DNA of 64,000 bases from Scatophagus argus (lineage: Eukaryota > Chordata > Actinopteri > Scatophagidae), in contig NC_058501.1 in assembly GCF_020382885.2 (NCBI RefSeq), positions 18,100,001 through 18,164,000 on the forward strand, written 5' to 3'. Shown here piece by piece: positions 1-39,384 of the stretch (position 1 is the first letter of the stretch; every line of letters begins with the position of its first letter). The notes under the pieces were generated by a model, which did not search any database, had not been told where the DNA came from, and saw only the letters and a list, made by a program, of their open reading frames with translations. The position numbers were made by a program, and so were the translations under genes.

Positions 1-3000
1 GATGATAGCCGGTGGAAAAACATTTATATTTGACTCTTGGACTAACAGAGTTACACTGAATTTAAGCACTAACTACACATCATTGACCATAAGGTCACTA
101 AAGGTGGAAGACTCTGGACTGTACACATTACAGAAAATGAATACCTCTCGTGCTGACTTAAAACTGTCAGTCCAAGGTAAGGATGACCTAATCACTTTTA
201 ATGTTTACTACTTGATGTTAATCTCATATACTTACATACTACAAATTTATATTAAACAAAGCTCAATACACACATACATCCATACACACAAATACTCATT
301 CAGTCGCAATGAGCAGAGCATTTTCACATTCTGTTGTCTACTTCTATGTTTGACAAGCGGTGATATGCAAAACAAAAGAACAGGGCAGAGTGGGAGCCTG
401 AAGCTATTACGGTCACCTTGACTTTGGCAGTATGAGAGTTAGCTTTGCTCGAGTCCTAAACTAAGTCTCAGTTTCAGTCTTCAGATTGGATAAATAGGAA
501 ATTTTGCCTATTTTTAATTATAAAAACTTAATTCTAATCATTTTAAAGAAATGACATGAGCTTTTAATGGATCTGGTGAAATAGCTGGTACTATTGTCAC
601 ACAGCATTATTAAAACTTAGTTACCTGAACACAAGTCAGGCCCTCTGACGCTATAATTAGGTAAGAGTAGGCTACTTTGGACTGAAGGCTGAATGTTAGA
701 TGTTGATCATTATCCAGTTCTTCAGTTAGCATGCTAACATGCTCCCAATTGCTCATATTGTCACAGACAATATTGATGTGTAATATGATGTAAGCCAGGT
801 TGACATCTTTGGCGTGTTGGCATGCTAACATTTGCTATTAAGCAAAAAAAAGAATAGAAATAAAGATGAAAGAAAAGAAAATAGGTGGGGCTGATGGGAA
901 TGCCATGTGATTACTTTTGCTGTTGCCGTAAGCGAGGCTAAAGACAGACTTCTGACAATCAGACTTAAATTCAAGACGTCACGTCACATTTGCGTCTACT
1001 GTCAGAGATAAATTACCTTGTTTGTCCACTGCAATCTTGCCTCTCCACAAAATTAGATAAATAGCTTTTTATTTCCTTCCTTGCAGTACCTGTTTCAAAT
1101 GTGACTCTGAGGGCACAGAAAACCAACCTGGTGGAGTTCAATGACACAGCAGTTCTCATGTGCTCTGTGTCCAGCGGGACATCCCTGTCTTATGCTTGGC
1201 TGAAGGGCAGCTCTGTGGTCACAGCCGGTGATGGAATACAGCTAAGCAATGAAGGAGCCACTCTTACTATTGTTGGGGTGACCCGCTATGACGCAGGGCC
1301 ATTCATGTGCAACGTGTCCAATGGTGTAAGCCATGAAACCAGTCCCCCTGTCCATCTGAACATCAGCTGTGAGTTTTCACAAGACAACTTGTAGGTCTAC
1401 TGTATGTATTTTAAAAAAATAGTTCCAATCACACATAAATCCCTAAAACATTTTCCCTCTTGTTGCTTCACTAGATGGTCCGAGTAACACGATGATATCG
1501 CTCATGCCCATGAAGTACATCTACAGAACGGGATCGAACATCACGCTGCATTGCTCATCGGAGTCCAGCCCTCCAGCGATGATCCAGTGGATGCTTGATG
1601 GAGTGTACCTAAATCAGTTTGCCCCGCAGCTTCAGCTAGAAAAGACTACAGAGAGCAACTCAGGAAATTACCAATGCATATTACACAACACAGTCACATC
1701 GAGGTTCAGCAGCACGAGTGCAATTATCAGGATTTTAGGTGAGGATTGGATTTGATTTGTAGAATTTTAGAGAGTACATGATTTCAAACTTATCATCTAA
1801 CTCTCAAGAAAGCAAATAAGTGTATTTCCCAAAATGTTTAACTATTCACTGAAATTATCCAGTGGCATGTGTCACATTTATTCAACTAACCGAGGTGTTA
1901 ATTTAAATGACCTAATTCCCTTCTCGTCCCACAGATCCAATAGAAGCAGTTGTGGTGAATCACACAGGTGGACCAGCGATACTTAATGACTCATTCACCA
2001 TGTGTTGTGAAGTGACTGGATCTGTTGACAGCATTCAGTGGTGGAGGAATGGTCAGCTTATTCCTCCTGACAATTCAACAGTCTTTGACATGGGCAACAA
2101 GACATTAACCCTCAGTCCAGTACAACATTCAGATCAAGGAGATTATCAGTGTCAAGCCTTCAATTATGTAAGCAACATGACCAGCAGCCCATACACAGTG
2201 GATGTGATCTGTAAGTATTTTAATTTCACTTTCTCTCTTTAATGCTGTCCTTGTTTTCTCGGTCCACTGATATATTGTGTGGATCAAATACTAAAGCAGA
2301 AATATTTGAAAATGTAACATTTTTACTTAATTGTCTGACATCACAAAATGGCCCACTGAAACCTGTGATCACGAGGCCAACAGAAATTAACCTTCAAACA
2401 CTTCTGTGCTGCAGTTAGACAAAGCAAATCTGAAAAATGCAAGAAATCCTCTAGCAAATGTGACAACACCTATAGATTCATCACAAAATATTGCCTGACG
2501 TCGATTAAACATCAGATTGTTGGTCTCGGGTCATCTAGTGACTCCATTCATGCACAGTTCTGTTCTCATTTGAATGTCTTGACAGTCATGTAATTATGAT
2601 GATTAAAGACAATATCAATGTGTTTTAGATGGACCAGAGATGACAATCATCACTGGACCAAAAATGGCAAAGACTGGATGCAATGTCACACTCAGCTGCA
2701 ATGCATCATCGAACCCTCTCAGCATCAAATGGTTCTTCAATGATACTGTTGTAGCCACAATGCCCGAGTATGTCACACCTCCTCTTACCGAAGACATGAG
2801 TGGGATGTACACCTGTATGGCCTACAACAACATCACCGGCAAAAACAGCACTGCATATACAATGCTTACTGTTATTGGTGAGACTTGGATGGCTATTTTT
2901 AGGTTTCTGGAAACCTAAAAATGTAATTGTGTACATTAAAAAAAAGGAAAGGTGAATCGAGATAGAACTACATAACGTTTTCCTTTTTGATTTTTTGTTT

Positions 3001-5214
3001 TCAGACCCAATAACAGATGTACAAATAGACTCACCAATGGATCCTGCCATGGATGGCCATTATTATAACCTAACATGCAACGTGACTGGACCTGCCATGC
3101 ATGTTTACTGGATTAAAAATGGCGAGCCGCTGCGTGAAGACAACAGAACTGTTTTCTGCATAGATAATAAGACAGTCATGTTCAACCCACTAGAACAGGA
3201 TGATACTGGAAACTACCAGTGTATGGCTCTTAATGCTGTTTCGGACATGACCAGCCCTCCTTACAAGCTCCTTGTGAACTGTGAGTATCGTAAAGGATTC
3301 TTGTCGCTGACTGTTTTAAACTCACAGTGTTCGTGCATCATCCTATGTATTTGACTCCTTTGCCGTTGCAGTTGGACCAGAGACGCCCATCATTGACGGG
3401 CCAGCTTTCGCAGAGACAGGACACGTCGCAGTCTTCCACTGTTCTGCCAAGTCAGTGCCACCCAGTCAGTTCAGCTGGTGGTTCAATGGCTCTGAGGTGG
3501 CCAGTACTGCAGAGTTTACAACTGGTCTTTTGCATTTAAATATGAGTGGAGAATACACTTGTATGGCCTACAACAGTGTGACGGGAATGAACAGCACAAA
3601 CACCAAGATGCTCACAGTCATTGGTAAGAAAACTTAAATATGAATTTTACTATTCCAATGCATCATGTCATGTGATTGTTTAGCTGATAAAATACTGGTT
3701 TCTACTGTGTTTTGTGTTCACAGAAGCAATAGAGTCAGTGATGGTCAGAGCCCACTCAGTTCCAGTAAACTCTGAAAACTTCACTCTCACCTGTGAAGTC
3801 ACTGGGCCCTATGACAAGATCTACTGGATGAAGAACAACATGTACCTCAACATGAACACTTCCAATGCTAAAGAAAACATGTCCTACTACATGGAAAACA
3901 ACATGCTGCACTTCACTCCAGTGACAATGTACAATGATGGGAATTACCAGTGTGTCGCCACCAATCAGGCTGCCACACATCAAAGCCCCCCATACATGCT
4001 CCTAGTGAACTGTAAGTTGTTTTCTTCTACATTTCATTCAGTTAATCATAACTGGTTTTAAGTATAATAAATAAGTATTATTTAATACATAAATAAATAT
4101 TTTAACATGCCACATGAAAATATGTAAAGATTTAAATATATAATATTTAATAACTTTACTATGTTTATGTACTAAAGTGGCAACAGAGAACCTTTTGCTA
4201 GCTCATCTAAGGTGTATTATTGCTGGGACAGCTGTTGTAAAGGCAACAGATTGCCATACGTTTATTTAGTTTTTCCAGTCATTTAGTTTATAATAGAAGT
4301 GTAAAAGCAGATAGGAATGGCGCCAGGCAGACAGTCTGACAGTATTGTGAGACAGATAAAACTGCATAGTGAAGGCGAGGTTGTAGGGACCCAGGCTAAC
4401 CACAGACAGTGTCATTATCCTATAGCATTGCGTTATGCAATGATTTCATTGATGATGATTTCTGATTTCATTTGGAAAGCTCTCCAAATGCTGCTCAAAA
4501 CAAACATGATTTAAGTTTTTCAGATTAAAATTGAGAATTTTGTGCAAAAGCAAAACTACAGTCATTGTTTTATTGAATTTTGACCAACTCTCTCTGTTTA
4601 TTTCCAGATGGCCCTCTGAGTATGCATATCTCTGGTCCAGATTCTGCAGAATATGGTCACCTCGTGTCCCTGAGTTGCTCTGCTGATTCTCAGCCAGACT
4701 GTGACTTCAGCTGGTTTTTTAGCAGTAACTCGTTAATTCTAGTGACGGGCCCTGTTATCACGTTCCCTGCCGTAAAGCAGAATGAGGGGAACTACACATG
4801 TAAGGCGAGGAACCCTGTGACTAATGTCATGATGTACCAGACTAAATACTTCACTGTTGGTGAGTGAGCCTCACTTCTTCTCTTCCTAGTTTTAATCTCT
4901 ATCTCCATAATACTTCTTTGGAGATCTTTCACATTTGAACAAACAGTATACGTTTGTGATATCCAAGCTCACAACTAAAATATGGATGAAACATGTTCCA
5001 ATGTTTTGACAGGATCATTTCAAAATGATCATTTTGCTAGTGATTAAAGCACTATCAGAACCACTGCTTTACAATTACAAATGTGTCATGTTAGGCTAAA
5101 TGTAACTTTGTTCTCATTTCAGAAAATCACGCGTCTGCCCTCCGCATCTCATCCCAGGGAGCTCTGATGTTGATCAGTCTGTTGGCTTTGTCTGTCACTG
5201 TGCTGTTCAACTGA
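1..5214 (+). CDS. CEACAM-like Ig-superfamily cell-surface protein (5' end outside window)
   Basis: Seen: ten exons, all joined by phase-1 introns: 1-176 (partial), 1087-1368, 1475-1738, 1935-2210, 2629-2877, 3005-3280, 3372-3623, 3724-4011, 4608-4859 and 5123-5214. The partial exon ends an N-terminal V-like domain (SLTIRSLKVEDSGLY). Eight further exons each encode one Ig domain with paired cysteines, a core W and a D/E-x-G-x-Y-x-C signature. They alternate between two types: one ends in VNC/VIC/ISC, the next starts Y/F-G-P. The array is thus four two-domain units. The last exon gives a short hydrophobic tail (ALMLISLLALSVTVLFN, then stop) with no cytoplasmic domain, which suggests a GPI signal. 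Many N-x-S/T sites are present. Known: CEACAM-family proteins are glycosylated adhesion and pathogen-binding proteins. Inference: a teleost CEACAM5-like member; another multi-Ig adhesion protein is possible. Signal peptide and start lie upstream. Confidence 0.82.
640..910. repeat. Interspersed teleost repeat in a CEACAM-like intron
   Basis: The intron after the first visible exon holds a stretch rich in GCATGCTAACAT motifs (about 729-740 and 820-830), followed by GGGGCTGATGGGAATGCCAT near 886. I recognise this combination as a dispersed repeat common in fish introns. Its class (probably a non-autonomous DNA element) is not certain, and its ends are estimated. Confidence 0.45.
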
Positions 5215-5645: not shown

Positions 5646-5844
5646 AAAAAAATCAACAACAGTAAATTCTTTTGGGGGCTTTATTGAAGAGGTTACAGTC
5701 TTTGTATTGATTCAGAAAGTTACAGTCAAGCAAACATTTGGTAGTGAAACATTTTGCTGTTAAAAAAAATGTAACTACATACAAATACGTATGCCAGTGA
5801 TTGTTGCTTAAACATCATTCATACATATAAAGAGCTCTTCTTGT

Positions 5845-6982
5845 TCAGATGGGGACACTGGGAGCGAACTTCCTGCCGTTTCTGCCCCTTCTGTTGAGAA
5901 ACAAGCTGCACTTCTTGAGATTCTTGTTTTTCTGGCACAGTCTATTCACTTGTGATTTGAATAGATCCAGACGGGTAAAGAAAAAAACAAAAAAAACAAT
6001 TTAAGTTTGATGACCAAAATATTTAAAATTCTGTAATTAACACTTTTCAAAGAGTTCTTTCCACTGATCATTGATCTCATTTTTCACTGGTTGTTTATTC
6101 CATAAAGCTCAAAAACTTTTTAATCAAAACACTCTGTTGTAGCCGCACAACACAAAACACAACTATTTAATGTAACTGACTCACTATGTAATGTAAATTC
6201 ACCACATACTTGTACAATGCCTTTATATACCTGTACAATGGTTTTATATTCTAGACATATTTCTATTTTGGCCTGTAGACTTCTCGTCTTGATTGGAGCA
6301 ACTGTAACAATCCCGATTTTCCGCACTGATCATTAAAGTATTCTGATTCTGATTCTGATTCAACTCACATTGCCCTTGCTTGCTGCGGCGTCCGGCAGTC
6401 GGCTTACAAAGGCAGCCTGCACCCACCGTCTCTCTTCTCTTTCCTGGGTGATGCAAATACACAAAGACAAAAGAGCAGAATGGGTCAGGATAATGCACTC
6501 TGCATTATGAGACCATAACCGGATGTGTGTTTCATTTATGTTGCTTTCACCTTTACAGGTACACAGTCCATTGTGCTGTCTTGGGGTGTTGATTGGTTTT
6601 GCAGCAGTCAGTGGTTGTCCAACATCAGGAGCTTATAAAAAATGATTAATAATAACAATTAGATTAAATTAAGTAATGCTAATGTAAATATTCAATAAAT
6701 ACTAATAAACAACTCTTGTGAATTTTTAAACTCATCACATCTCACATACCATCAGTGAATGTCTTGACTATCGACGATTGTTCATGTGTTTCAGGAACAC
6801 CTTTACAAAAAAGAATTAAAATAATAATGTAATAAAAATAAAAATGACAGAATAAAATGTACATGAAGTAAACTTTCTTTTTAAACTCAGTACATTATCT
6901 TATTCAGGTGTACAATACCTTGGCTGTGATCAGTAAATAAAAGCAGTAGAAACACCAACAGCAAAAACATCCTTGACTCCAT
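5845..6982 (-). CDS. cxcl17: CXCL17-like secreted chemokine (124 aa, five small exons)
   Basis: Seen: exons 6982-6919, 6800-6750, 6631-6551, 6443-6369 and 5948-5845, all with GT/AG ends and all phase 1, joining into 124 codons. Residues 1-20 are a strong signal peptide (MESRMFLLLVFLLLLF). The mature protein is basic and has six cysteines as C62-x-C64, C76-x-C78, C95 and C104. It ends KFAPSVPI. Known: mammalian CXCL17 is a small secreted basic protein of about 119 aa with two CXC pairs, two later cysteines and a C-terminal x-Pro-x, encoded near CEACAM1. Spacing differs: 11 residues between the CXC pairs here, about 22 in human as I recall. Neighbours are a CEACAM-like gene (convergent) and pafah1b3, as in human 19q13.2. 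Inference: the fish CXCL17 counterpart. Gene structure is firmer than the name. A lineage-specific cysteine-rich peptide is the alternative. A TATA-like box lies about 105 bp upstream. Confidence 0.73.
6125..6358 (+). mobile_element. Non-LTR retrotransposon 3'-end fragment in intron 4 of the cxcl17-like gene
   Basis: A stretch ending in CATTAAAG followed by (ATTCTG)n at 6337-6358 has the form of a LINE or SINE 3' terminus with a short tandem tail. It lies between exons 5 and 4 of the minus-strand gene, inserted in the opposite orientation. The left boundary is a guess. Confidence 0.45.
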
Positions 6983-7085: not shown

Positions 7086-7094
7086 CCTTATAAA
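7086..7094 (-). promoter_or_regulatory. TATA-like box of the cxcl17-like gene
   Basis: On the minus strand the bases read TTTATAAGG, about 105 bp before the ATG at 6982. That is a suitable distance for a TATA-driven transcript with a 5' UTR of roughly 70-80 nt. The downstream UTR has no obvious splice site. Confidence 0.4.
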
Positions 7095-9147: not shown

Positions 9148-10836
9148 TTAGTTCTCAGCAGGCTTATCTAGCATGGACGTGAGATGGGCATGCAAGGGTT
9201 CACACACAGCCTGGTAGCCCTGAGGGGTCAGGTGAAGGTAATCGTACATGTCCTGATGGGAGATGCTACCATTAGAGTGGACGAAGCCTGGGTCCACATT
9301 GAGGAAAGAAGCATGGGGGAGGGATGATAAGGCCTCCTGGACCAGCTTGTTCACCTTTTCATTTCGCTCCCGCAGAGGGTTTGGCATTTTACCCCTGGGC
9401 AGTAGACCCTAGAAAACAGATTTATGGATGTTATTGTATAAAAGGTGGAATATTCTTAGAAACAGATGCACCGATGTAACTGTTCAATCTGAAAATTAAC
9501 ATTAATCAGACACATTCTACTCACCCAAACCAACATGTCAGTTGAAACTCAAATGAAGTTTGTAGCCCCAACAAACATACAGAAAACCTGCATGTAGTTC
9601 AATCTCAGCCCTCTCATAAACAACTAAAAACTTTCAAACATAATATGAAAAGTAGCAAATTACCCAACAGTTCAAACCCCAAGTTCAAAAGTATATTGGC
9701 ACAAAACTGAGGTGGAACTAATAGGGATGACATAACTGTAGAGTTTTATGGTTGTATGAACTTCACTTATCATTTTCAATGAACATGCAGGAGAGTGAAT
9801 CAACACATTTAAGGAATGCATCAGGAAACAAAAAAACCTACAAGTACTAGTGTCCGGGCATGGGGGAGCTTGTTCTTGATGACTTGGACAATGGCCATGA
9901 TCCCTCCACAGATTTGTTCAGCAGTGTGTCCGTGATTGTTAGTGCCTACACACAGCACTACAACCTACAACGACAAAAGAGAAAGGAGTTCGATATACTG
10001 TACGTGGAATTTGGACAAAAAGTTAAGCACAATAAGTCTACTGTGTGAATAAACAAACATAATCGTGTTCTCTATTTTTAGCAGTGATCAGGACCTTTGG
10101 GCTGATGTTATCCAGTTCACCGTTGCTCAGTCTCCACAGCACATGTTGTGTTGCATCACCACCCACCCCAAAATTGAGAGCATGGAGAGGAGAGAACAGC
10201 TGTCGCCATACCTGCAGAAAAAAACACAACGACATGCATAAACATGTTGAAATCTAGATTAAACAGAATTTTAAATTGTGCATGGATGCTTATGAGAACA
10301 AGACCAACTATCAGTCACTGTATACAGATATAGACACAGCAAAGTGTGCGATCAATGTTTTACCCCAAACTGGTGCATGAGCTGAATAATAGAGTCTCCT
10401 ACAAACAGAACATCAGGTTCTTTGTCTTTGCTATCGGCCACAAAGCGGTTGTGCTGTAAAGAGAAAAAAGAAAAGGTGAACTTTAATAATTTTGTGCATG
10501 TTATTAAGCATCCCCCCAGATGCAGAAACAAAGGCTGCTCTTGAAGGTGAAACATATCAGTTGAACTTTATCAGCGGATCAAATATCAGTGCATATTCCC
10601 ATGTCAATCTGATGAAAAAAGGATGTGTCAGGATTATGACTGTGTCTGTACAGTTAGATGTCCTCAAAATAACTAATGGATTATTCTTTTATTATTGTTA
10701 TAAATTTACCAAGATACATATTAACCAGAAAGTAGACCGGGAAAATTTTACACACCAGAGACATCCATCGTCCATCTCCCTGGGTGTCATCACAGGGGGT
10801 GGGTGTGGCGGCTGGGTTTGGGTCTTCTGCACTCAT
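9148..10836 (-). CDS. pafah1b3: Platelet-activating factor acetylhydrolase IB, catalytic gamma subunit
   Basis: Seen: five coding exons, 10836-10756, 10453-10364, 10211-10095, 9964-9842 and 9408-9148, giving 223 aa with all joins phase 0. The protein starts MSAEDPNPAATPTP and has the family's GDGRWMSL and HNRFVADSKDKEP stretches, the nucleophile motif GDSIIQ, GGDATQHVLWRL, VGTNNHGHTAEQ and the catalytic D-x-x-H in YDYLHLT. Known: a GDSL/SGNH-fold esterase that removes the sn-2 acetyl group of PAF and forms dimers bound by LIS1 (PAFAH1B1) in the cytosol. Human PAFAH1B3 is 231 aa, so length fits. HGHTAEQ and HDMYDYLH-like wording favours B3 over B2. The donor after exon 3 (AAG|gtcctg) is weak, but the joined frame matches the family exactly. 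A 5' noncoding exon probably ends at 11395 (donor GAGGAG|gtaaaa), with an acceptor just before the ATG. The gene is head to head with the prr19-like gene, as in human. Confidence 0.93.
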
Positions 10837-11825: not shown

Positions 11826-12421
11826 GCATGGATTTTGTGGCACTCCCGTAAGTGATTGTTTTTATTAATGTTGTTAATATTCAGTCTTTAAACATGGTGA
11901 GAGAAAGCCTTGACATATTTGAATGTTGTTTATTCTATTTGCTGATTAATATTTACCAGATTTTGTTTTCAGTGTACCACTAAATTGATCTGAAGTGCTA
12001 ATATCAGAGTGCTTATGGACTATCTTTGGGCACAGGCTCCTTTGAATAGGAACCCACGTGATACAGGTGTCACAAACTTTTAAATGAGGAAAATATATAT
12101 GTACCAATGCAGATCTTAGACACTAGGTGGTACTTTTTCCTAAACAACTTCAGCAATGTGTTTTATGTTATCTACTTGATTTGCTTATATCCCCCATAAT
12201 TTTCCGATGAAGAGAAATGGGTCTGGGTTCTAATGGGTTAAACAACAAAGGGGTCAGTATACTTTTCATTCAGCTATTACCATGTGTGATTCTAGTGTTG
12301 ACCTCATTGTGGTGCAACAGCATCCTGTAGAGGTTACCCAGCTCTCTCTTCTCTGTTTCCTCCAGCATTGCACATGACTACCTTCAGTTATCTTTCTGCA
12401 GAATCCAAAGCAGCATGAACC

Positions 12422-15150
12422 ATGTATATGGATGCTTCAGACAAACAGAAGATCTCAAATGTTTTCAACGAGCAATTGAAAACAACAGATAAAAATTGTT
12501 GCTCAGTAAACAGATTCACTGCAGACTGCAAAGCTTCAAACCCCAAAAGTAAAACAGATGGCCAGCACAAAATGAAGCGACTGAAGAGCCGCAGGAAGAG
12601 GAGCCAGATGAGAGGTGTTGGGAAAGAAGCTCTAAAGTCCAGATCACATCACAATCACTGTTGTCGCCAAGCCAGTGAAAACATAGCACATTACCATAAC
12701 TGCTGTCACAATAGCTGTCATTGTCCTTCAAGGAGTGGTGCACTTTTTCCAAACGCCCGTCCTGCTGCACAGGAGTCCAGTATCATTACAGACAGTCGCC
12801 TGATAGGACACCAAGGCCTGTTCAACCATGAAGTGAAATCTATTGACATTGAACGCTTGTTAAGTGAGCAGAGGAAACTGGAGAAATGTGGGCAGCAAGT
12901 ACAAAAAAAGAACAATGCTACTTCACATCCATCTTCAGCCATCTCCACTCGTGATTTCTTGGGTACTGATGAAAAAAAAGCAAGCCCAGAGACAAAGGCC
13001 CGTGATGATTTTCAGGACATAAAGAATTGGATCAGTCAGGGAGCAGATGTTACACTAGGGCAGAGATCACAGCAACAACTTGATCTTTCATCAGGAAGTG
13101 GTAAAAGCACCTTCTCATCTAAACACAGCCCTGTTGATGTAATTAAGAGCAGGAAAGCCAACCCTGCTGTGTCTGAAAGGGGCAGAGAGCCACAGCAGAT
13201 TCCCACAGTTGACAGGGAAAATGTGAACACATTGAATAAGAAGGTAAAGGGTCACATGATTTCTACTCTGGAACACACTCCAAGGAACCAGGAGTCTCCT
13301 GTCCACCTAACTCATGGTTTCAGCCCAAGCCCACTTCAGGTCTCCTGCTCAAATACCATTGACAACAATGACATGCAGCATGGAAGACAAGATCCTGACT
13401 GTGTATCTCAGTTTGTCAGTGCAGTGGCAGCAGATTTGTGTGATAGTCTGCAGTTTCCAGTTCTGAAAAGGAGAAGCCTGGTGGCAGAGAGCAGAGAGGT
13501 GCTATTGAAAGCTCTACGGGAGAGTCATGGACCCCATCTTGAGAAAAACCTCCTCAAGGTGCAGAGATACTTAAGCTTTGACACTGATCCAGCAAAGCAT
13601 GGCCAGCATCAGGAGCCCACCATGACAGATGAAGATGAGCCCTTGCCCACAGGTAGGCACTTAAATACAAGAAAGCCCTGAGATTCACAGTGGAAATAAA
13701 ATATTGTGATTTGCTAAACCTTAGTGTTGTTTCAAAGTGATAGTTACTGCATGTTTTATCACCTCAGTATTTTAGGTTGAATTTTTGGAAAGAGACAAAT
13801 TTTTTGAATATTTTAAAAAGATAATTGTTTACATCTGCTTCCTTGGCTTTCACCATGCTCACAAACATGCTTATTTGTCTTTATATGATGACGATACAGT
13901 AACATATCGAATTAATTTGTCTAAATCAGACAGCTGAAGCATATTAACTTCAGAATACATTATTGCATTAAACAAGGACTCTGGATTTGGTCCTCCCATT
14001 GTTTACAATACACTGAAAGCACATTTAAAGGCCAATATGACCAGGAGGAGTAAATACAGCAGCTTCAAGTTTTCACACTTGAAAACATATGATGCTGTTT
14101 ATTAAAATGGCCTTTAACAGCATACTGTCCATAGCAATTTGGATTTACGTCAAAAAGTAAATTTCTTGTTTTTAAAAAAGCAGTAGTAATCACTGCACAC
14201 ATCATAGTTTGTGGGGAAGTTTTCAGTTGTGTGTTCTTCTTTTTGGTGTGTTCGCAACAGCCAACAGAGAAGGTCAGCCAAGTTTTGACAGCCATAAAAC
14301 CACCTCTTTCAGAGTTACAAGAAACAGGCGTTTTAACTGGAAGTCCAGACCACAGAGACACCACAACCGTAAACAGGTAAGACCTCAAGTTTACTCCTCC
14401 ACTCTCTTACTTAAGTTAATTTCACATATGGCCCAGTTGTTATCTTACCTAATTGTCAGATAATTTTTGATTCCATCATTTAGAAATAAAATGCTTTTTG
14501 TTTTTCATGTAAAGACTGCTGAATGGTTGAGAAGCCCTGTGCTGACTTCGGACAACCTTATGGATGATATCCTCAGACATACTCGCTCTCCTCAGTCATG
14601 CATGTACTTTGAGAACTCTGGAGCTACAGCCGGTGATCATTTGTTCTCTCCCTTTCCCACCTCATGCTGTGAAGAAAAAGCCTCAGTATTTCATCAGGGG
14701 GAAGACAAATTTAACAGGCCAAAGAGCAAAGAGGCTGTTATGTTCGGTACCTTTGGAAACAGCTTTGTGAACCAAACCAGAGCAGATACAGAGAGGAGCT
14801 CTGGGTTCCAATACAGTGATGGCAATATCCAGCCTTTCTTTTCTTACAAAGCACAGCGGCCACATAGATATTCAGCAGGCCCAGCGCCCTATCCCCAGGA
14901 GCAAGACCTATTTGAAACTGACAAACATTTGTTTTCCCTCTCTGCCCAAATTCACCATCCTCAGCAGCGCAACTGCTTCCGGCCTTTCAGCCGATTCAGT
15001 CGCCCTTCAGTTTGCCCTCCCCTCAGGTCCCACCATGCTGACATTACGCATTATCCCCCATCTCACATGCTTGAAAGAGACCCAGCGACTCCTGTTTCTG
15101 CTCTCTTGAGCCCTGAGCACTGGTCCTTCCCCCCTATGAGACTGTACTAA
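12422..15150 (+). CDS. prr19: PRR19-like protein (meiotic crossover factor candidate)
   Basis: Seen: three coding exons, 12422-13652, 14261-14376 and 14515-15150, joining in frame (phase 1, then 0) to 660 aa. The first coding exon follows an acceptor at 12400; an upstream noncoding exon probably ends at 11533. The ATG at 12415 is in another frame and soon stops, so 12422 was chosen. No catalytic domain is visible. Residues about 48-64 are a basic stretch, residues 76-101 are very rich in His and Cys, and residues 121-155 hold a conserved-looking block with HQGLFNHEVKSIDIERLL. The C-terminus is Pro-rich and ends SFPPMRLY. Known: PRR19 acts with CNTD1 in meiotic crossover formation in mouse and lies head to head with PAFAH1B3. 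Inference: named mainly from that position plus general composition. Human PRR19 is, from memory, about half this length. Confidence 0.66.
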
Positions 15151-15811: not shown

Positions 15812-18763
15812 TTAAGGTAACAAGTAATTGTTTTCATCTGATATGTGAGTCTCAAAATGTTCAGTTTCCTTGTTTTCAATTGCACAAACTTCACTTGTGC
15901 TATTTTCTTCTGTTTCAACTCGGCTCCCCGTCCTTATTGCCCTACGTAGCTGATTCCAAAACAGGTCTTGGGCCTGCATCGGGTCAGTGCAGTCTGAGCC
16001 AGGCCACTGCAGATAAGTCTTTTTCAACATCACTTTCCTCATGCGGTGATACGACGACAGCTGCCTCTCAGAGATTGGCTCCAGAAACACGAGTAGGAGA
16101 ACATCCCGGTGTTCATCGAACAGTCGGTAGCTGGCCAGTTGGATTTCCAGAGAACACCACTCACTTTTGAGGAAATTCCTGCTCACCACACAAATAGTTT
16201 TACGGCTGCCATATACAGCAGAGACAATGTTGTCCACAATATCGCGGCCCGGCTCAAAGTCCCTGTGATGTAAGCAAAGTTTGAAAGATGATCCCTTTCC
16301 CTCCAAGTTGGGCAGCAACTGGTCCATGACCCATTGTTCATCGGAGGAATTATAGGAAATGAATGCATCATATTTGCAATTTTCCTCCTCCTCTATTAGT
16401 CTGCGCCAGTGCTCACCAAACCAAGAGCGGAACACATAGTAGCCATACTTAATTTTCCAGTAGAGTTTGACGTAAAGCAAAGGAGTGACTGTGAACAGAA
16501 AGATCGCAAGTGCTGTGCTGAAGAACAGGTACTCTCCGAGATTTATGTAACAAACGTTGGTATCAAACTTGTAGAATTTGAGACTCGCGTTATGTGGGCA
16601 CGGAAAACTGTAGAGATAGACCACTTGAACCTTTGTGTTATTCATTGTCCAGTTTTTCAACAAGTTGTTCTCACAGGTACAGCTTAAAGGAACATTACGT
16701 ATGTCAAGATATTTGAGTTTAGGTAAACTTTCTAGTACATCGACACGGATGGTCTGCATCACATTGTGATTGAGCTGGATTGTGCGTAACTGTGTAAGGT
16801 TCCCAAAAATCTCCTTCGAGAAGTTCTGAATTCCCATATTTTCTACAATCAATTTGTTCAATTTTCTTACATTTTTAAAGACTCCTGGTTGTATTTGTGC
16901 CACCCCAACACAGCAGTTATCCAGTGTGAGGAATTTTAAGCCTGTCAGATCATTAAAGACATCAGGAGCAAGATAAGAGATCTTATTGTTGGTGAGATAC
17001 AGAGATTTCAGTGAGCGAAGACCACGGAATAAAGTGTGGGGTAAAAGGGTGAGGCCATAAGGCCGTTGTCCATCCAATTTCAGATCTCTGAGTTTTGTGA
17101 GATTCATAAATGGTGAATAAGAGATATCTTCTTTGAGGAAGCGAATCTGATTACTTTGTAAATCAAGCACTGTTAGTGTGTCTTGAAATACATGATGGAG
17201 CGAAATGTCGATCTTTTTGAGATTGTTTCCATCTAGATAGAATTTGGACAGACGTTTTAGTCCATCAAGGCCAGATTTCTCAAAATGAGTGATCTTATTA
17301 CCTCCTAGGTCCAGTGTAGTCAGATTTCCGAGACTGAAGAAAGTCCCGTTGAAGATGACAGAAATACGATTGTTGCGCAAGTTAAGGGTTTGCAGGTTGA
17401 AAAGATCTTCAAAGGTGTTGTTGAACAAATCGGTTAAGAGGTTATTGTCCAAACGGAGTGTTGTAAGGTTTTTTAGCCCTTTGAGAGCTTTACGATGGAG
17501 AAAAGCAATCGTGTTTATGTTAAGTTTTAATGTTTTGATATTTGGTGTATGATAGAAAGCATAAAAGTTTACAGAGCGGATACGATTGTAACGATAGCTC
17601 AGCTCTTTCAGCTCTCGGAAACTAACTGCATTTTGTTTTTTACATGATGGCAGTGAGGTCAGGTGGTTATGCTCTGCACTGAATGATTTTATCTGTGTCT
17701 GTCTCTTGAGAAAATTAAGACAACTCGTGCTTTTCAGTTGGTTGCGGGATAGATTCAGAGCCCCTGTGATTTCAGGACAATAGTGCAGTGCAGTGCAGTT
17801 TGTCAGATTCTCAATCCTATTACTAGTCAGGTCCAAATCTTTGATCCTTTTCATCTTTGTCCTTAATAATTTGCATAGTTCGATGAGCAAGGTGTCATTT
17901 TTTAGACCTGTGTCAGAGAAATCGATGTGACCTGCATAGATGTTGCTGATGTTTAAAAACTCCACAATCTTAACACTTGTTGACCGCAAACGCAGATAGT
18001 TTACATGCCTTAAATCCACTCCTTGAAAGGCCACTGTTGGAAGCCAAGGATTGTATGACAAATCTAGTACCTGGATGAATCTGAGAAACGAGTGTTTACA
18101 TCCTAATGTAGACAGATTATTTCTACATATGTATAAAGTAGTGAGGGATTTGGGTAGTGACATGTTTGAGTGGTCGAGGGAGGTCAATTTGTTAAAGCAA
18201 AGGTCTAGCATACTCAGATTTTTTAGATGTGACACAGACTCAGCAATGCGCGAGAAATTTTTCAGAAAGTTTTGTCTCATGATTAACTTGTTTAGATTGA
18301 GAACAGTGAAGAAAATTCCTTCGGGAAGCTGTTTCAGGTTATTTTTTGTCAGTGACAGAAAGGTGAGGCTGTGCAGGTCCCGAAAGAGAGAAGGGTTGAG
18401 CTCTGATATATTGTTAAAAGACATATTCAGAGACTGAAGTTGATGCAGTTTTTGGAAAGCAAATTGGTCGATGGTAGTCAAGTTATTACAATCTATTCTG
18501 AGGTTTGTAAGGTTTGGCAGATGAGCGAAGCTCCTGTCAGAAATGTGCCACACAGGATTAATGGACACCGTGAGATTGATGGCTGACTGGGGCAGGTCGT
18601 TTATAATAGCCAACATGTCCTCAGCCTTTCGACGGATGCACTTGAAACTTTGTCCGTTTGAGCCTGGGTCTTCAATGCAGTTGTTGAAGCTGTAACCGCT
18701 AATAAGTTGAACAGCACCAAGAATGACTGTAACTGGTAACAGCTGATAATTTAGACCTGCCAT
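15812..18763 (-). CDS. Toll-like receptor of the TLR11 subfamily (TLR22/TLR23-like)
   Basis: Seen: one uninterrupted 983-codon frame. Residues 1-23 look like a signal peptide. A long leucine-rich-repeat ectodomain with many N-glycosylation sites follows, closed by a C-terminal cap (CTCENNLLKNW) and one membrane segment at about 743-766. The cytoplasmic TIR domain begins at CKYDAFISYNSSDEQW (residue 796). It has the BB-loop HHRDFEPGRDI with its proline near residue 838, then SRKTICVVSRNFLKSEWC and a box-3 region ending FWNQLRRAI. Known: intact TIR domains recruit MyD88 or TRIF adaptors; TLR22 is reported in fish to sense long double-stranded RNA and is often encoded by one coding exon. Inference: active receptor of the TLR22/23 group. 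Residue wording in the TIR fits TLR22 best; TLR23 or TLR13-like are alternatives. It is flanked by prr19-like (convergent) and the CXCR3 cluster. Confidence 0.88.
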   Translation of the reverse strand: MAGLNYQLLPVTVILGAVQLISGYSFNNCIEDPGSNGQSFKCIRRKAEDMLAIINDLPQSAINLTVSINPVWHISDRSFAHLPNLTNLRIDCNNLTTIDQFAFQKLHQLQSLNMSFNNISELNPSLFRDLHSLTFLSLTKNNLKQLPEGIFFTVLNLNKLIMRQNFLKNFSRIAESVSHLKNLSMLDLCFNKLTSLDHSNMSLPKSLTTLYICRNNLSTLGCKHSFLRFIQVLDLSYNPWLPTVAFQGVDLRHVNYLRLRSTSVKIVEFLNISNIYAGHIDFSDTGLKNDTLLIELCKLLRTKMKRIKDLDLTSNRIENLTNCTALHYCPEITGALNLSRNQLKSTSCLNFLKRQTQIKSFSAEHNHLTSLPSCKKQNAVSFRELKELSYRYNRIRSVNFYAFYHTPNIKTLKLNINTIAFLHRKALKGLKNLTTLRLDNNLLTDLFNNTFEDLFNLQTLNLRNNRISVIFNGTFFSLGNLTTLDLGGNKITHFEKSGLDGLKRLSKFYLDGNNLKKIDISLHHVFQDTLTVLDLQSNQIRFLKEDISYSPFMNLTKLRDLKLDGQRPYGLTLLPHTLFRGLRSLKSLYLTNNKISYLAPDVFNDLTGLKFLTLDNCCVGVAQIQPGVFKNVRKLNKLIVENMGIQNFSKEIFGNLTQLRTIQLNHNVMQTIRVDVLESLPKLKYLDIRNVPLSCTCENNLLKNWTMNNTKVQVVYLYSFPCPHNASLKFYKFDTNVCYINLGEYLFFSTALAIFLFTVTPLLYVKLYWKIKYGYYVFRSWFGEHWRRLIEEEENCKYDAFISYNSSDEQWVMDQLLPNLEGKGSSFKLCLHHRDFEPGRDIVDNIVSAVYGSRKTICVVSRNFLKSEWCSLEIQLASYRLFDEHRDVLLLVFLEPISERQLSSYHRMRKVMLKKTYLQWPGSDCTDPMQAQDLFWNQLRRAIRTGSRVETEENSTSEVCAIENKETEHFETHISDENNYLLP

Positions 18764-20162
18764 TTTGTCCGGTGGAACAGTGCTTTAAACCTCCTTCATC
18801 TGGATCTTTGCTGGTTTCAACAAGGCCTCAGGGTTGTTCACCAGTTGAACGCAGTACAGCAATCTGAGGACAGAGAGCAGGACTTAACACACATCACACG
18901 TCGGAAGTTACCATTTCAAATCAGATCTGGCTTTTTACTTTCAAAAAACAACACATGTAATCCAGTGCAGTACCATAATCATTATACATACACACCGACA
19001 CACACAGAGTTGAGTTTTTATCACGTCTGGGGACATTACATAGACTTACATTCTTTTCCTGGAGGCTCATGTTGTGGGAACTTGCATTTTGTCCCTATAA
19101 GTATGGTGAGTCCTCACAATGCGACTGTGTTAAAAAGGTTTTTGTCCTCATAACATGAATATGCATCCACATATACACACACTTACACAGACCTACCTAT
19201 ACACACAAAAAAAATCATAATATTCCTACTCAGTTCTGTGTTTTGCCATGAAGTTTGAACCACACAGTAAGATAACATGGGTTCCTCTTGTAACATTTTC
19301 ATATCCCTTTTCACTCTGTCCACGCGTTCCTTCTCCTCTTGACATTTGTTCCACTTTGTGATAACCCAAAACTGACACTGTTAAAACATGCGATGAATGG
19401 GCTGATATTGTTCAAAAAAGCCGAAAACAATTTGGCCTGCACTGATTTTACTGCAGGAATTTGCTAAATATATGACTGAAGTGCAGTATATAAAGTATCC
19501 TAATCCTTATTCATTTTGTGGCATGTAATTACAGATTCAACCTCTTAAAAGACAGTATTTTTAGTTTAGTTTACTTTGTTAAGCAAGTCTTTCACACCAT
19601 CTTTCGCACAATCTTTCAGCCCGTGTCTGATCAGAAAACCACCTGCCAGTCACTGCTAAATAGAAAGTTAGAATTAATGAGATTAGTTTGTCATGAGAGC
19701 CTTACCTGTTTAAATGAGTTTCATTCACTTGACATTGCTTCTTCCTTAAAGAGCTTCTTGCACAGTGGAAATGTTAGATACACGCTAAATCAGGAAGAGG
19801 AACATGGGTGTAGTTCTTGCAGGAGTGTGGAAGAGCCTAAACCGCAGCATTATAATTGCAGGAAGTTTTTTTTTTTTTTTTTATTGAAATACTGTTGCTT
19901 AAATTGATATACATTAGTTAATTAGCCATACATAAAATACTCCTATTACAGAATACTACATGAAGACACATTGTATATGTATATATATGTGTATATGTGT
20001 GTATGTGTATATGTGCATATGTGTATATATATATATACACATTGCAGGTACACATTGCATTAAACAAAGCAACAATCCGGTATTAATTACATTCCGAATG
20101 AAATAATGTGTGGAAATTCAACGCTACAAACTTGCTGATTTGTTGTACACATACAAGGTACT
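18764..20162. other. TLR upstream region and AT-rich intergenic DNA
   Basis: The stretch should hold the TLR promoter and any 5' noncoding exon, but I cannot fix either. It contains simple sequence and no supported gene. A T-run occupies about 19866-19882. Confidence 0.4.
19972..20040. repeat. TATG/TA simple-sequence tract
   Basis: Alternating purine-pyrimidine repeats (TATATG, TGTA, TATATA units) run with little interruption. It is a compound microsatellite and likely polymorphic. Confidence 0.85.
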
Positions 20163-24476: not shown

Positions 24477-25999
24477 ATGAATCAAGTGATGCCTGTCACA
24501 GAAGATTACTGGGTGAGTTGATATTTTTACAGTCCTGAGACTGCAGACTCTATTTGCATTTGATTTGGTTTTTCACATTTATGTTTAAAATATTGTAGAG
24601 ATCATTCAACCAGGAAGAGTTACTCAGCTGCATCGAGCACATACATGAGTTATCTCGAAGCTCCTTTCTTGATAAAGCAACATGATCAAACACATTTTGG
24701 GACTCTTATAACATTCATGTCCAGAACTGCTCTTACTGAGGATCAAGTAAATTAAATGAAAATAGTAAACAGTTGGGTCCCACATTGCAAGTGATTTGAA
24801 ATGCTGCAAAGTACAGCTTTCTTGATTAACCCGTCTATTACCAGAATCTGACAAAAGCGAATTCGTGAAATAGTCAGAATTCTTAATGCCTCTCTTGTCA
24901 ACAGAGCTTCGACGACTATGACAATTACACCTTGCCCCCTGACACGGGCAGGAGTCATGCAGTGCCATGCATGCAGGGGGACATCTACAGTTTTGCCCAG
25001 AGGTTCTCTCCTGTTGTATACAGCCTGGTGTTCCTCCTGGCTGTTGTGGGCAACGTGCTGGTGCTGTGTGTGATCCGACGCTACCGAAACTCTCAGAGCA
25101 GAGGAGCCTGTGCCTTCTCCCTGACGGACACCTTCCTCCTTCACCTGGCCATTTCTGACCTCCTGCTGGCCTTCACCCTCCCTCTTTTTGCAGTGCAGTG
25201 GGCTCACCAGTGGGTGTTCGGCTTGGCTCTTTGCAAGATCTCCGGTGCCCTCTTCTCCCTGAACCGTTACAGTGGCATCCTTTTCCTGGCCTGCATCAGC
25301 TTTGACCGATACCTGGCCATTGTTCACGCCGTCAGCTCTGGCTGGAAGCGCAACACCTGTCATGCCCAGATTGCATGCTCTCTCATATGGGTGGTCTGTC
25401 TGGGCCTGAGTGGGGTGGACATTGCCTTTAAACAGGTAGTGGAGGTGAACATGTTAAGCCATAAGGAGGTCCATTGCAGGGTATGGTTCACTGAGAATTC
25501 CACACAGTGGCAGGTGGCTCTGCTGCTGGTCAGTGCAATTCTGGGTTTTGGCCTCCCCCTGCTCATCATGCTCTACTGCTACATTCGTATCTTCAGGTCT
25601 CTCTGCAATGCCAGTCGCCGCCAGAAGCGCAAGTCTCTCCGCCTCATCATCTCCTTAGTGTCTGTGTTTGTCATCTGCTGGGCACCATACAGCTGCTTCC
25701 AGCTGGCAGATAGTCTGCAGAGGCTGGGCGTAGTGAGCGGAGGTTGCCAGTTTGGCCGTGTGGTGGATGTTGGGACTCTGATCACTGAAAGTGTGGGCCT
25801 GACGCACTGCGCCCTGAACCCTCTGCTGTACGGATTTGTGGGGGTGAAGTTCAGGAGGGAGCTGGTCAGGATGTTTAAGGGACTTCTGGGAGAGAGAGGC
25901 TTGCTGGAGATGGCAGGATCGAGAAAGAGGAAGAATAGAAAATGTAAAGGATCTTTCAGTTCAGAAAGCGAAAACACCTCTTATTCTGTCATGATGTGA
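24477..25999 (+). CDS. CXCR3-family chemokine receptor, canonical motifs
   Basis: Seen: exon 1 at 24477-24512 encodes 12 residues (MNQVMPVTEDYW); exon 2 at 24905-25999 encodes the rest, 376 aa in total. The N-terminus is acidic and tyrosine-rich (SFDDYDNY), apt for tyrosine sulfation. It has seven hydrophobic segments, DRYLAIVHA after helix 3, CWAPY in helix 6 and NPLLY in helix 7. Cysteines in the N-terminus, helix 3, loop 2 (VHCRVW) and loop 3 (GGCQF) support both usual disulphides. The tail ends with a Ser-rich segment (SFSSESENTSYS). Known: such receptors couple to Gi and guide leukocyte migration. The short first coding exon matches the mammalian CXCR3/CXCR5 layout and differs from the next two genes. 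Inference: teleost CXCR3, perhaps the copy called cxcr3.1. CXCR5 was considered, since the DRYLAIVHAV wording resembles it. Confidence 0.84.
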
Positions 26000-29653: not shown

Positions 29654-29663
29654 TTGATGAAGT

Positions 29664-31112
29664 ATGGATGTGGTTCTCGATGGATTGTTTCGCTACAACA
29701 GCAGCTATGACTACGACGACTATGAGTATAAAGATGAGTTTGAGTCAGGACACAACAAAGCACTATGGATGACAGTTTTGTTCTCAGTGGAGCTGGTTAT
29801 CGGTCTGCTGGGGAATGGACTACTCCTGGCCTCTGTGGTTCAGAAGAGGCGATTCTGGAGTACATCAGGCACCTTCGTCCTCCACCTGAGTGTTGCAGAC
29901 CTCCTGCTGCTGGTGACGCTGCCCTTCTGGGCCGCACAGGCCGCTCAACGTTGTGAATGGTGCTTTCGAGGTTTCCTCTGCAAGATTGCTGGAGGCATTT
30001 TTAACGTAAGTATACTGAGTGATGTGTCTGCAGAACAGGCAGGGAGCTGAAACGAAAGTGACTTTCAGTGAAGACAAATGAAAGCTTGTTTTGAGTGGAT
30101 TGTGTCTGGCTGTATGCCATTACTTCCTGCATAATCAAGACTAGACCAGGGTCATTGAACTTAATACTGTTCCCGAGTAAGTATACACCCCTGACATCCA
30201 CATTTTATCAGGGATCTCAGCATTTCTGGGAAATGACGGGAAAGAGGGAGGGGATCAGAGTAGGAAAGAGGTGAAATTTGGGTCATAAAGATGGCTGGAG
30301 GTTCTCTTTCTTATGCGAGATCACAGCTCAAGTTTTCTTTTTCTATTCCATAGGTCAACTTCTACTGTGGAATCCTTCTGTTCGTTTGCCTCAGTGTGGA
30401 TCGCTACCTGTCCGTCGTCCATGCCACCCACCTGTACTCACAGAGGAGGCCCAGGTTGGCTCATATCAGCTGCTTGGTGGTCTGGATCATTTCTCTGATC
30501 CTCGCAATCCCTGGATGGGCTTCTGTGGAAGTCTCAGCACCAGAGAAAACCCTGTGTGTTTACAAATTCACTCATTCACATGGTTCACAGAAACACATGG
30601 TGTCACGTCTTGTCCACCTCACACTGGGCTTCCTGCTGCCCGGGGCCATCCTGATCATCTGCTGGTCCTGCATCCTGCTACGGCTGCAGCGCAACGCCAA
30701 AGGTCTCCAGAAGCAGAGGTCCATCATGGTCATCCTGTCCCTGCTAGTGGTCTTCTTCCTCTGCTGGATGCCATACAACGTAACGCTTCTTGTGGACACC
30801 ATCAGAAGAAGGTCTGCGGAATCTAATGATAGTTCGTCTGGAAATCCTGAAGGTTCCCCGAAAACAGCTCTGATGGTCACATTTGCTTTGGGTTGCATTC
30901 ATGCCTGCCTCAGGCCTCTGCTCTATTTTTGCCTGTGTGCAAACTTCAGGAAACAGACTCTGGCCATGCTGAGTTGTGCTACAGCTGAATCTGAGGGCTC
31001 GCTGTGGGAGTTGGATGTGGGTGAGAAAGCCATGCCTGGCCAAAGCGATGAGGGGGCAGAACTGAAGCAGATGACAAGTGTTGATCATCAGATGCAGTCA
31101 TCGCAGTGCTGA
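29664..31112 (+). CDS. CXCR3-family receptor with atypical features (cxcr3.3-like candidate)
   Basis: Seen: exons 29664-30005 and 30354-31112 join in phase 0 to 366 aa. An in-frame TGA at 29658 fixes the start. The N-terminus is rich in Asp and Tyr (YNSSYDYDDYEYKDEF). DRYLSVVHAT and CWMPY are intact. Helix 7 has RPLLY instead of NPLLY. The N-terminus and the third extracellular loop both lack the cysteine that normally links them, while the helix 3 and loop 2 cysteines remain (LCK, EKTLCVY). Known: fish have several CXCR3 copies, one of which (cxcr3.3 in zebrafish) is described as an atypical scavenging receptor. Inference: this may be the counterpart with weakened G-protein signalling. The intron in helix 3 is shared with the third receptor gene. 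The upstream ATG at 29657 opens a short overlapping frame that could lower translation. Confidence 0.83.
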
Positions 31113-36514: not shown

Positions 36515-37733
36515 TCAGATTGCAATGGATTTGGACGTGTCAGCAGACTCGGACCAAATGGAGCTTCTCCTACTGCTGGCAGCCTGGAGTTTGGCACTTA
36601 TCTTCAGCTTGCAGCCCAGAGATCTGAGGATCTGCCAGAGCTGACGCCGAAACTTCACACCCACAAAAGCATACAGGATGGGATTGAGGCTGCAGTGGAC
36701 GTAGCCCAGGCAGGTGGTGATTATAATGGCTTTCTCCAGAGACTTTCTGGCCCCACAGGTCTCCCTGCTGCTTTCAGAATAAAGTGTGTCCACCATGAGT
36801 GTGATGTTATGTGGTGTCCAGCAGAGGAAGAATACGACCACCACGGCCATGATTACCTTGAAAGCTTTCTGCTTTTGGAGGCTATGGGAGCCGCATCGCA
36901 GCTGCCACAGAATGCAGGAGTAGCAGAAGATCAGGACAGCTGAAGGCAGCAGAAAGCCCACCGTGTGGTAGAGGACCCGTGAAGCCAGCCGCCAATCATG
37001 TAGTGACTGAGAGGCGAACATTAAGTAGTTGCGGACGCACTCCGTTATGAGTCGCCTGTCATCCTCCTTAGCCTCCAAAAAGATCCAGTCAGGGGTGGAG
37101 AGGAGCATGGAGAAGAGCCACACTGCCAAGCAGCTGACCTGCACCATCCAGGGCTTCCTGCGAGAGTACATCTGGGTAGCGTGGACGATGGACATGTAGC
37201 GGTCCAGGCTGATGCAGGCCAGGAGAAAGATCCCACAGTAGAAGTTAATCTGAAATAAATCAGCCAAAGAGAAATGAGAAGCACATTTACTATCATGCAC
37301 TTTGATGCTTAGTGCATCTTTCCCACTGCACACTTCTTACCGTGGTAACAGCTCCAATGATCTTGCAGAAAGGCGTGCCAAAGGTCCATCCTTGAACTGC
37401 CTGTGCAGTCCAAAAGGGCAGCGTCAGCAGCAGCAGGATATCTGCCAAAGCCAGGTGGAGGATGAAGGTGTCTGTCACACTCCAGGTCTTCCTGCACTGA
37501 AACAGAACTCCAAGGAGCACTCCATTCCCCAGGACACCAACAAAAAACACCACCGAGTACAGAACTGGGATGAACACCGCCCCAAAATGCATGTTCTCGT
37601 TCAGGTCGCATACGTCACCCCCAGCGCAACAGTAGTCATAAGATGAGTTGTAAAATGAAGAGTAGTTGTCATATAATTCATCATAGCCTTCAAGAAGATC
37701 TCCGCTCAGTGTAATCACGCTACTGGATCCCAT
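36515..37733 (-). CDS. CXCR3-family chemokine receptor, canonical motifs (cxcr3.2-like candidate)
   Basis: Seen: exons 37733-37341 and 37249-36515 join in phase 0 to 375 aa. The N-terminus has repeated Tyr-Asp pairs and N-glycosylation sites (YDNYSSFYNSSYDYCC), followed by seven membrane helices. DRYMSIVHAT, CWTPHN and NPILYAF are intact. Cysteines for both extracellular disulphides are present, including loop 3 (RETCG). The C-terminal tail has a Ser-rich phosphorylation-type end (SSRRSSIWSES) resembling the tail of human CXCR3. Known: CXCR3 directs T cells, NK cells and macrophages toward CXCL9/10/11-type ligands; in zebrafish Cxcr3.2 acts in macrophage migration. Inference: the signalling paralogue of the neighbouring receptor at 29.7-31.1 kb, with which it shares the helix-3 intron. 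The two lie in convergent orientation. Copy numbering is tentative. Confidence 0.87.
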
Positions 37734-39384
37734 CAGTGAAATCTGAACGAGAAGAGAAAGAGGGAAATCTTCACATTAATGAGCATTCGATCTGTGCCAT
37801 CTGTTTCAACCACATGGAGGTGCTATGTCGCTATGCTGTTAACAACTGAACCCACTGAATCTATCTAGGCCTACGTAAAGCATCTTTCGTAGATCAGAAA
37901 CAATCTGTTCAATATAGTAGAGAAGACTATTCAAAAATTACCATTAGCTAAATATTGTTTTATTATTGTTCTTTAGGACTATTTAGAGAACTCTCACAGC
38001 AGTATTGCGAAAAAAAGTTTTATCTGTGCAGTAACTTTCTGGAAGACCGTAAAAATTTGTGAATTACAGCAAATCTAACCGTTTGTGACAAAAGTGTGCA
38101 TTCATTGCTTTCTGCCTTCTGAGGACATGACCTTTGAAATACTGTGAAGTTGAAAGCAGACCTCTTTTATCTACTCTTGTTACACATTAAGACTAATGGT
38201 GACATATAACCATACTTTTTCTTGTCTTTGGTGTAACAATAAATTATCATTTGGTCGCAATAAATGATTCAAAAGTCCAATTTTTTAACTCCCACACAAA
38301 GTTGACTGCAGCTTCTCATTGCTTGATCCTTCATAAAATGCTACAAATCTCTCCTAAATGGCACTGAGCTACAAAACCGAACGTGATGAGAACATCGAGG
38401 ATGAACAGCGAAAGAACCGAACAAAGATATTAATAATGTAGCAAATGTGCTGTATCAAAATTCAATTTGAGTTCATCACTAATTAGTTAATAAAGTAAAG
38501 GTAACACACACAACACAGACAAACAGGGATATAGAAGAACATTAAGTGCATTATGCCATGTGTCATTCACATGTGAATGTAAGTAATAAAGCTTGATAAA
38601 TGCATGTTAATTAAATCTTCTTTTTGAAGAATAATAAATGCATCATCTAAGAATTGAGGTTTGAGGTAACTTACCAAATTGTAATCCTCTGTCTTATACT
38701 GATACTGTCTTGTCCTTAGAGAGCAGGCTCAACAACGTGTTCTACCTGGTGATCAAGAGACTTAATGTTGCCAATAACCACATAACACAGAAGAGGAAGC
38801 AAGTGACGAGACGAAGAAGAAAAAAAAAGAGGTGCAGCATACAATCATGCAGTATTGTTGGGGGAAATGTACGACCAAAACTTCAAAACTTTCATAATCA
38901 GGGTTGAAAAATTGTAATTTTATTTCCTTAATTGAAACATTGAACAAGCAGATCTGCATGAATTCCTTTTTAATTTGAATTTGTTTAACTAACCCTGATT
39001 CTCTATGCTGCCCTCTTGCCTTATGGTGGTTTTTTTAAGTGGTTTTACATCAATAGAAAGAAAAGATGTTATTGTGAGTGTGTAGGCTGGACTTTTCCAA
39101 GAAACTTATGAATAATACTCATTTGAATTTACACTGACTGAATTTGAGAACACTTATTACCTTCATGAGTTTCAGTGTTTATCAGGCATCAGCTTAATGA
39201 CACTAGAGACAATATGCTTTATATACAACAAGTTAGCACTTTACTGATTATGGACAAAACACAAACAAAATACACAAAAGGTAGAATTCGCTTTCATCTG
39301 CTTTACTAGGCTCAAGGTAGTTTAGTTCAGACAATGCTGTGCGACTGGATTGTTCATTTAGTTTAAGCAGACTGCTATACTATA
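37734..39384. other. Upstream region of the minus-strand receptor gene
   Basis: The receptor's promoter should lie here, but no clear TATA box or first exon is recognisable. The rest is AT-rich with no supported gene. Confidence 0.35.

Follow-up and report, generated by a model that had tools for sequence, protein, structure and literature searches.

In mammals, the secreted chemokine CXCL17 recruits immune cells. Canonical CXC chemokines (e.g., CXCL8 and CXCL11) are small, basic, secreted proteins that carry a CXC motif and have four cysteines, not six. CXCL17 was called mammal-specific in a large 2024 survey (PMC10792014). The first fish CXCL17 to be described, in January 2026, was zebrafish cxcl17 (zgc:158701, B0S594, NP_001138293), found by its x-Pro-x end together with a signal peptide and six cysteines (PMC12905490). 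Zebrafish cxcl17 has four exons, lies between pafah1b3 and ceacam1, and encodes 109 aa with a CXC-CXC-C-C layout and an LPI end. The protein binds and activates zebrafish GPR25, and removal of its last three residues almost eliminates the effect; W104 and K274 of this receptor are predicted to touch the proline and carboxylate of the ligand (PMC12905490). A number of further ray-finned fish also have homologs, some of which have two splice variants, and fish members escape mammalian queries (PMC12905490).

The window (the whole stretch of DNA that was analysed, 64 kb) contains a cxcl17 candidate on the minus strand, running from 6982 to 5845, in which five exons of 64, 51, 81, 75, and 104 bases (the stop codon counted in the last) join into 124 aa. 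All four introns (118, 118, 107, and 420 bases) are of phase 1 and bounded by GT..AG. Re-joining the minus-strand exons exactly reproduced the five phase-1 exons with GT/AG ends and the 124-aa product of the first-pass annotation. The gene and its flanking motifs comprise:

7088..7092, minus strand: TATAA motif, a possible TATA box (motif scan only; 4 other TATAA in the scanned stretch)
6919..6982, minus strand: exon 1, start codon and signal peptide (MESRMFLLLVFLLLLFTDHSQ), donor AAG|GTATTG
6750..6800, minus strand: exon 2, a 51-base in-frame cassette of 17 codons, phase 1 at both ends
6551..6631, minus strand: exon 3, first CXC (C62, C64)
6369..6443, minus strand: exon 4, second CXC (C76, C78)
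6210..6362, minus strand: interspersed repeat fragment in intron 4 (genome matches, 72-85% identity)
5845..5948, minus strand: exon 5, C95, C104, basic tail, SVPI C-terminus, and stop, with a weak acceptor (AAG|T)
5680..5685, minus strand: AATAAA, a possible polyadenylation signal (motif scan only; 2 other AATAAA in the stretch)

By motif scan, the first base of the TATAA is 7092, which places it 110 bases ahead of the ATG; that of the AATAAA is 5685, 160 bases beyond the stop. The length of intron 4 is probably due to the repeat fragment, for which 40 of 98 first-look genome places were scored, the 39 besides itself falling within the identity range given above. The fragment also carries a (TCAGAA)n tract.

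The predicted protein begins with a strongly hydrophobic leader (maximum 10-residue hydropathy 3.64, at residue 7), giving a signal peptide by hydropathy on a protein of 124 aa, within the limit of <200 aa used for fish CXCL17. Six cysteines in the mature peptide (62, 64, 76, 78, 95, and 104) form the CXC-CXC-C-C layout, and the Xaa-Pro-Yaa C-terminus, in which X and Y are large aliphatic residues, is VPI (the protein ends SVPI). If the leader is cleaved after residue 22, the mature peptide is basic (pI about 10.6, net charge +16). The signal peptide, cysteine layout, high basic charge, and SVPI end that had been annotated are thus all present in the joined translation. The protein has no match in Pfam or NCBIfam; 0 Pfam families were returned at a limit of E 10, at which HMMER filters remove most matches above about 0.1, and the canonical chemokine Pfam profile gave no match.

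The gene lies in the following neighbourhood:

1065..5214, plus strand: CEACAM-like gene, the convergent neighbour downstream, with tandem immunoglobulin domains and a short hydrophobic C-terminus
9148..10567, minus strand: pafah1b3 exons, upstream of the cxcl17 candidate (solved-structure and Pfam matches)
12419..13681, plus strand: prr19 exon, beyond pafah1b3 (Pfam PF15455, E 5.9e-12)
24887-25999, plus strand: first chemokine-receptor gene, best match CXCR3 among solved structures
29661-31112, plus strand: second (middle) chemokine-receptor gene, more divergent
36515-37775, minus strand: third chemokine-receptor gene, best match CXCR3 among solved structures

The candidate therefore occupies the place published for fish CXCL17, between pafah1b3 and ceacam1, with a CEACAM-like Ig gene standing for the latter; Ig domains were found in three of the four stretches of this gene that were scanned, and its name is given by domain make-up and place only, not by a named-family match. 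More Ig-like exons, read by eye over the 20 kb that precede the window (C9:18080001-18100000), suggest a cluster of CEACAM-like genes. For pafah1b3, the last exon scored 104 bits to solved PAFAH1B gamma/alpha vs. 89.5 to beta, Pfam matched one of the three exons scanned, and the only other match in the genome at E <= 0.001 is 49% identical. Near prr19 there is a 990-aa open frame for a Toll-like receptor (15812-18784, minus strand) with leucine-rich repeats and a TIR domain. The first-pass annotation had placed three CXCR3-type receptors nearby; this description holds for the outer two, whereas the middle one scores slightly higher against CXCR1 than CXCR3 (121.9 vs. 111.9 bits). Beyond the chemokine receptors lie a gene with RING/B-box and PRY-SPRY domains and then MEGF8-type exons with EGF and Kelch domains, which we take to be MEGF8 by name; the human CXCL17 gene order presumably includes both PRR19 and MEGF8.

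When the 124-aa protein was searched against its own 570.7-Mb genome, five of the eight matches fell on its own locus at E < 0.001; no other place in that genome gave a good match, the other three matches having E values of 1.26-3.99. The Pfam CXCL17 profile (PF15211) gave nothing above cut-off at the locus or elsewhere in the genome, and the translations read at two weaker places outside the locus, both below threshold (E 0.18 and 3.25), contain no CXC pairs. A second, cxcl17-like gene was sought by way of PLAC8 (ponzr-type) sequences, for which the sole match at E <= 0.001 (C6:6450788) carries stops; a search for CXC-C-CXC-C models in the surrounding 82 kb (10 overlapping stretches) and in the window returned nothing, which is a weak negative.

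The genome also encodes a receptor candidate of GPR25 type. With a human GPR25 sequence as the query, and 113 of 397 first-look candidates scored, the best of 115 listed matches is C3:15623783-15624748 (44% identity, 232 bits). The next three in rank are, by best solved match, two apelin receptors and ACKR3. Among solved structures GPR15 is closest to the C3 candidate, which is the only one of the four best receptor loci to match GPR15 best, with no separate GPR15 among them; judged by sequence, the candidate could be GPR25 or the related GPR15 instead. A stretch with a TGF-beta domain lies about 21 kb upstream, and a 284-aa stretch nearby matches no Pfam family, so that this reading of the synteny did not reveal the expected neighbour, INAVA. 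The candidate has W108 and K275, near the predicted contact positions W104 and K274 of zebrafish GPR25 (PMC12905490), an equivalence that is taken from the numbering.

From this evidence the gene is very probably an ortholog of zebrafish cxcl17 (zgc:158701) and encodes a chemoattractant that would act on GPR25 through its C-terminus. The main evidence for orthology is the agreement with zebrafish CXCL17 in place, cysteine layout, and length; the case for orthology is built on gene anatomy and synteny, and that for function on published work in zebrafish. Every published family feature visible in the sequence is present, with exon number (five as read vs. four) as the sole difference, which supports the earlier CXCL17-like reading. 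The accompanying statement, that CXCL17 pairs with GPR25 through its C-terminus and that fish orthologues have been reported, proved correct (PMC12905490). A fish CXCL17 is not in itself new, as the January 2026 report already covered the family in zebrafish and other ray-finned fish (PMC12905490). What is added here is modest, namely a further fish gene, which may be among the homologs of that report, and a fifth, in-frame cassette exon.

By the mechanism taken from zebrafish CXCL17, in which the C-terminus leads the interaction with GPR25 (PMC12905490), the gene would be expressed as a precursor from which the signal peptide is removed to give a small, very basic secreted protein, and the six cysteines would pair in three disulfides; for zebrafish CXCL17 the predicted pairs are C1-C4, C2-C3, and C5-C6. 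The basic body may be held by glycosaminoglycans on the cell surface, and the GPR25 pocket on lymphocytes would take up the free C-terminal Val-Pro-Ile, with the carboxylate on a lysine. Activation of GPR25 in this way would draw the lymphocytes in by chemotaxis.

The splice signals differ in quality. On splice-site matrices, the acceptor and donor of exon 2 are good (95th and 98th percentiles), the exon-1 donor is at the 90th and the exon-3 acceptor at the 78th percentile, and the acceptor of exon 5, at the 43rd percentile of all AG, is weak. Of 13 AG sites between 6056 and 5881, six outscore the exon-5 acceptor, which is the sole in-phase AG among the 13 within the open stretch 6000-5845. 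Its use is consistent with the T-rich run of intron 4, which precedes it by about 25-50 bases without an intervening AG. All six higher-scoring AG are out of phase with exon 4, and use of the top-scoring one (start 5890, score 2.90) would also remove C95 and C104. An acceptor 7 bases downstream (start 5941) would give a frame-shifted product of 134 aa with seven cysteines and no x-Pro-x end; it scores lower (-7.86 vs. -5.66), so the junction at 5948 was kept.

The weak, outscored exon-5 acceptor might indicate that the exon chain is a chance assembly of unrelated open stretches, and that there is no such gene. Codon preference is also weak, only mildly coding: in a comparison set of 1152 stretches from the window, each of 30-80 codons without a stop and with coding ones included, 15% score as high. 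This reading was addressed by an exhaustive search of both strands for models of 3-5 exons with a signal peptide, CXC-CXC-C-C, basic charge, and an xPx end, in which the splice-score floor was that of the candidate itself, and the cysteine ranges were set around this protein at first and widened in a second search. One of 26 xPx stops in the 64-kb window qualified, namely that of the cxcl17 candidate, with four model variants (two start codons, each with and without exon 2). No model arose in 60 dinucleotide-shuffled windows at the first thresholds or in 500 with looser cysteine spacing, whereas nine of 300 shuffled windows gave some model once every threshold had been loosened. The 0/500 result at the real thresholds, and the position of the single qualifying site at the genomic place of zebrafish cxcl17, make chance assembly highly improbable.

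A more serious alternative retains the cxcl17 identity and concerns exon 2. Skipping this exon keeps the frame open and gives four exons and 107 aa; models with and without it are equally open, so that the exon number is five as read or four, the latter as in zebrafish cxcl17, which has three introns. Exon 2 is probably optional or lineage-specific, because the form without it agrees with zebrafish CXCL17 in exon number and approximately in length. Accordingly, the main transcript might have four exons, with exon 2 skipped or not an exon at all and the 124-aa product a minor or false form. The correspondence of 107 aa with the 109 aa and four exons of zebrafish, and the two splice variants of some fish homologs (PMC12905490), argue for this form, and the good acceptor and donor of exon 2, with a frame open where it needs to be, argue against it. 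On balance the four-exon form is a plausible but less favoured version; it refines the preferred explanation, and the confidence given to each overlaps with that given to the other. A different departure accepts a real, secreted, cationic peptide but assigns it a main role other than GPR25 signalling, for example as a mucosal antimicrobial peptide or as a ligand of the nearby CXC-type receptors. The charge and pI of the mature peptide and the three chemokine-receptor genes about 18-31 kb away are compatible with such a role, but the VPI C-terminus fits the published requirement of GPR25 (PMC12905490). Moreover, CXCR3 has its own ligands, derived from an ancestral CXCL11, and proximity, the one point in favour of the nearby receptors as targets, is by itself no evidence. 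A main role outside GPR25 signalling is therefore improbable, although less so than chance assembly, and a GPR25-directed cxcl17 ortholog remains the preferred reading.

Regarding the cassette, it is conceivable, if rather unlikely, that this lineage gained a 51-base phase-1 exon that separates the leader from the cysteine body, and that alternative splicing switches between two mature forms of the GPR25 chemoattractant that are 17 N-terminal residues apart, thereby tuning matrix binding or range.

A further fish cxcl17 at the same place, in a genome that also has a suitable receptor candidate, supports the view that the two arose in early bony fish, and adds a species in which the CXCL17-GPR25 pair can be tested. 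The case also shows that gene anatomy and genomic neighbours can reveal fast-evolving peptides such as CXCL17 when sequence profiles miss them.

Compared with canonical CXC chemokines, which have four cysteines, the present protein has six and gives no Pfam match. Mammalian CXCL17 lacks detectable sequence similarity to it, as judged by the Pfam CXCL17 profile, which gives no match; the two nevertheless share CXC-CXC-C-C, the x-Pro-x end, and a neighbourhood of cnfn, pafah1b3, and ceacam1 (PMC12905490). Zebrafish CXCL17-like (si:dkey-112a7.5) is also secreted, with six cysteines, an x-Pro-x end, and GPR25 agonist activity, but its layout is CXC-C-CXC-C and its gene lies elsewhere in the genome (ponzr, ugt5g1) (PMC12905490); it is not the present gene. 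Zebrafish CXCL17 itself differs in having four exons, 109 aa, and LPI, vs. five, 124 aa, and VPI here. It shares the pafah1b3/ceacam1 place, the signal peptide, CXC-CXC-C-C, few exons, an aliphatic-Pro-Ile end, and a mature pI of about 10.5 (10.6 here); the cysteine gaps, calculated from published positions, are similar (1-10-1-17-10 with a tail of 18 there, 1-11-1-16-8 with a tail of 20 here) (PMC12905490). Unlike in canonical CXC chemokines, the GPR25-active end of CXCL17 is the C-terminus (PMC12905490).
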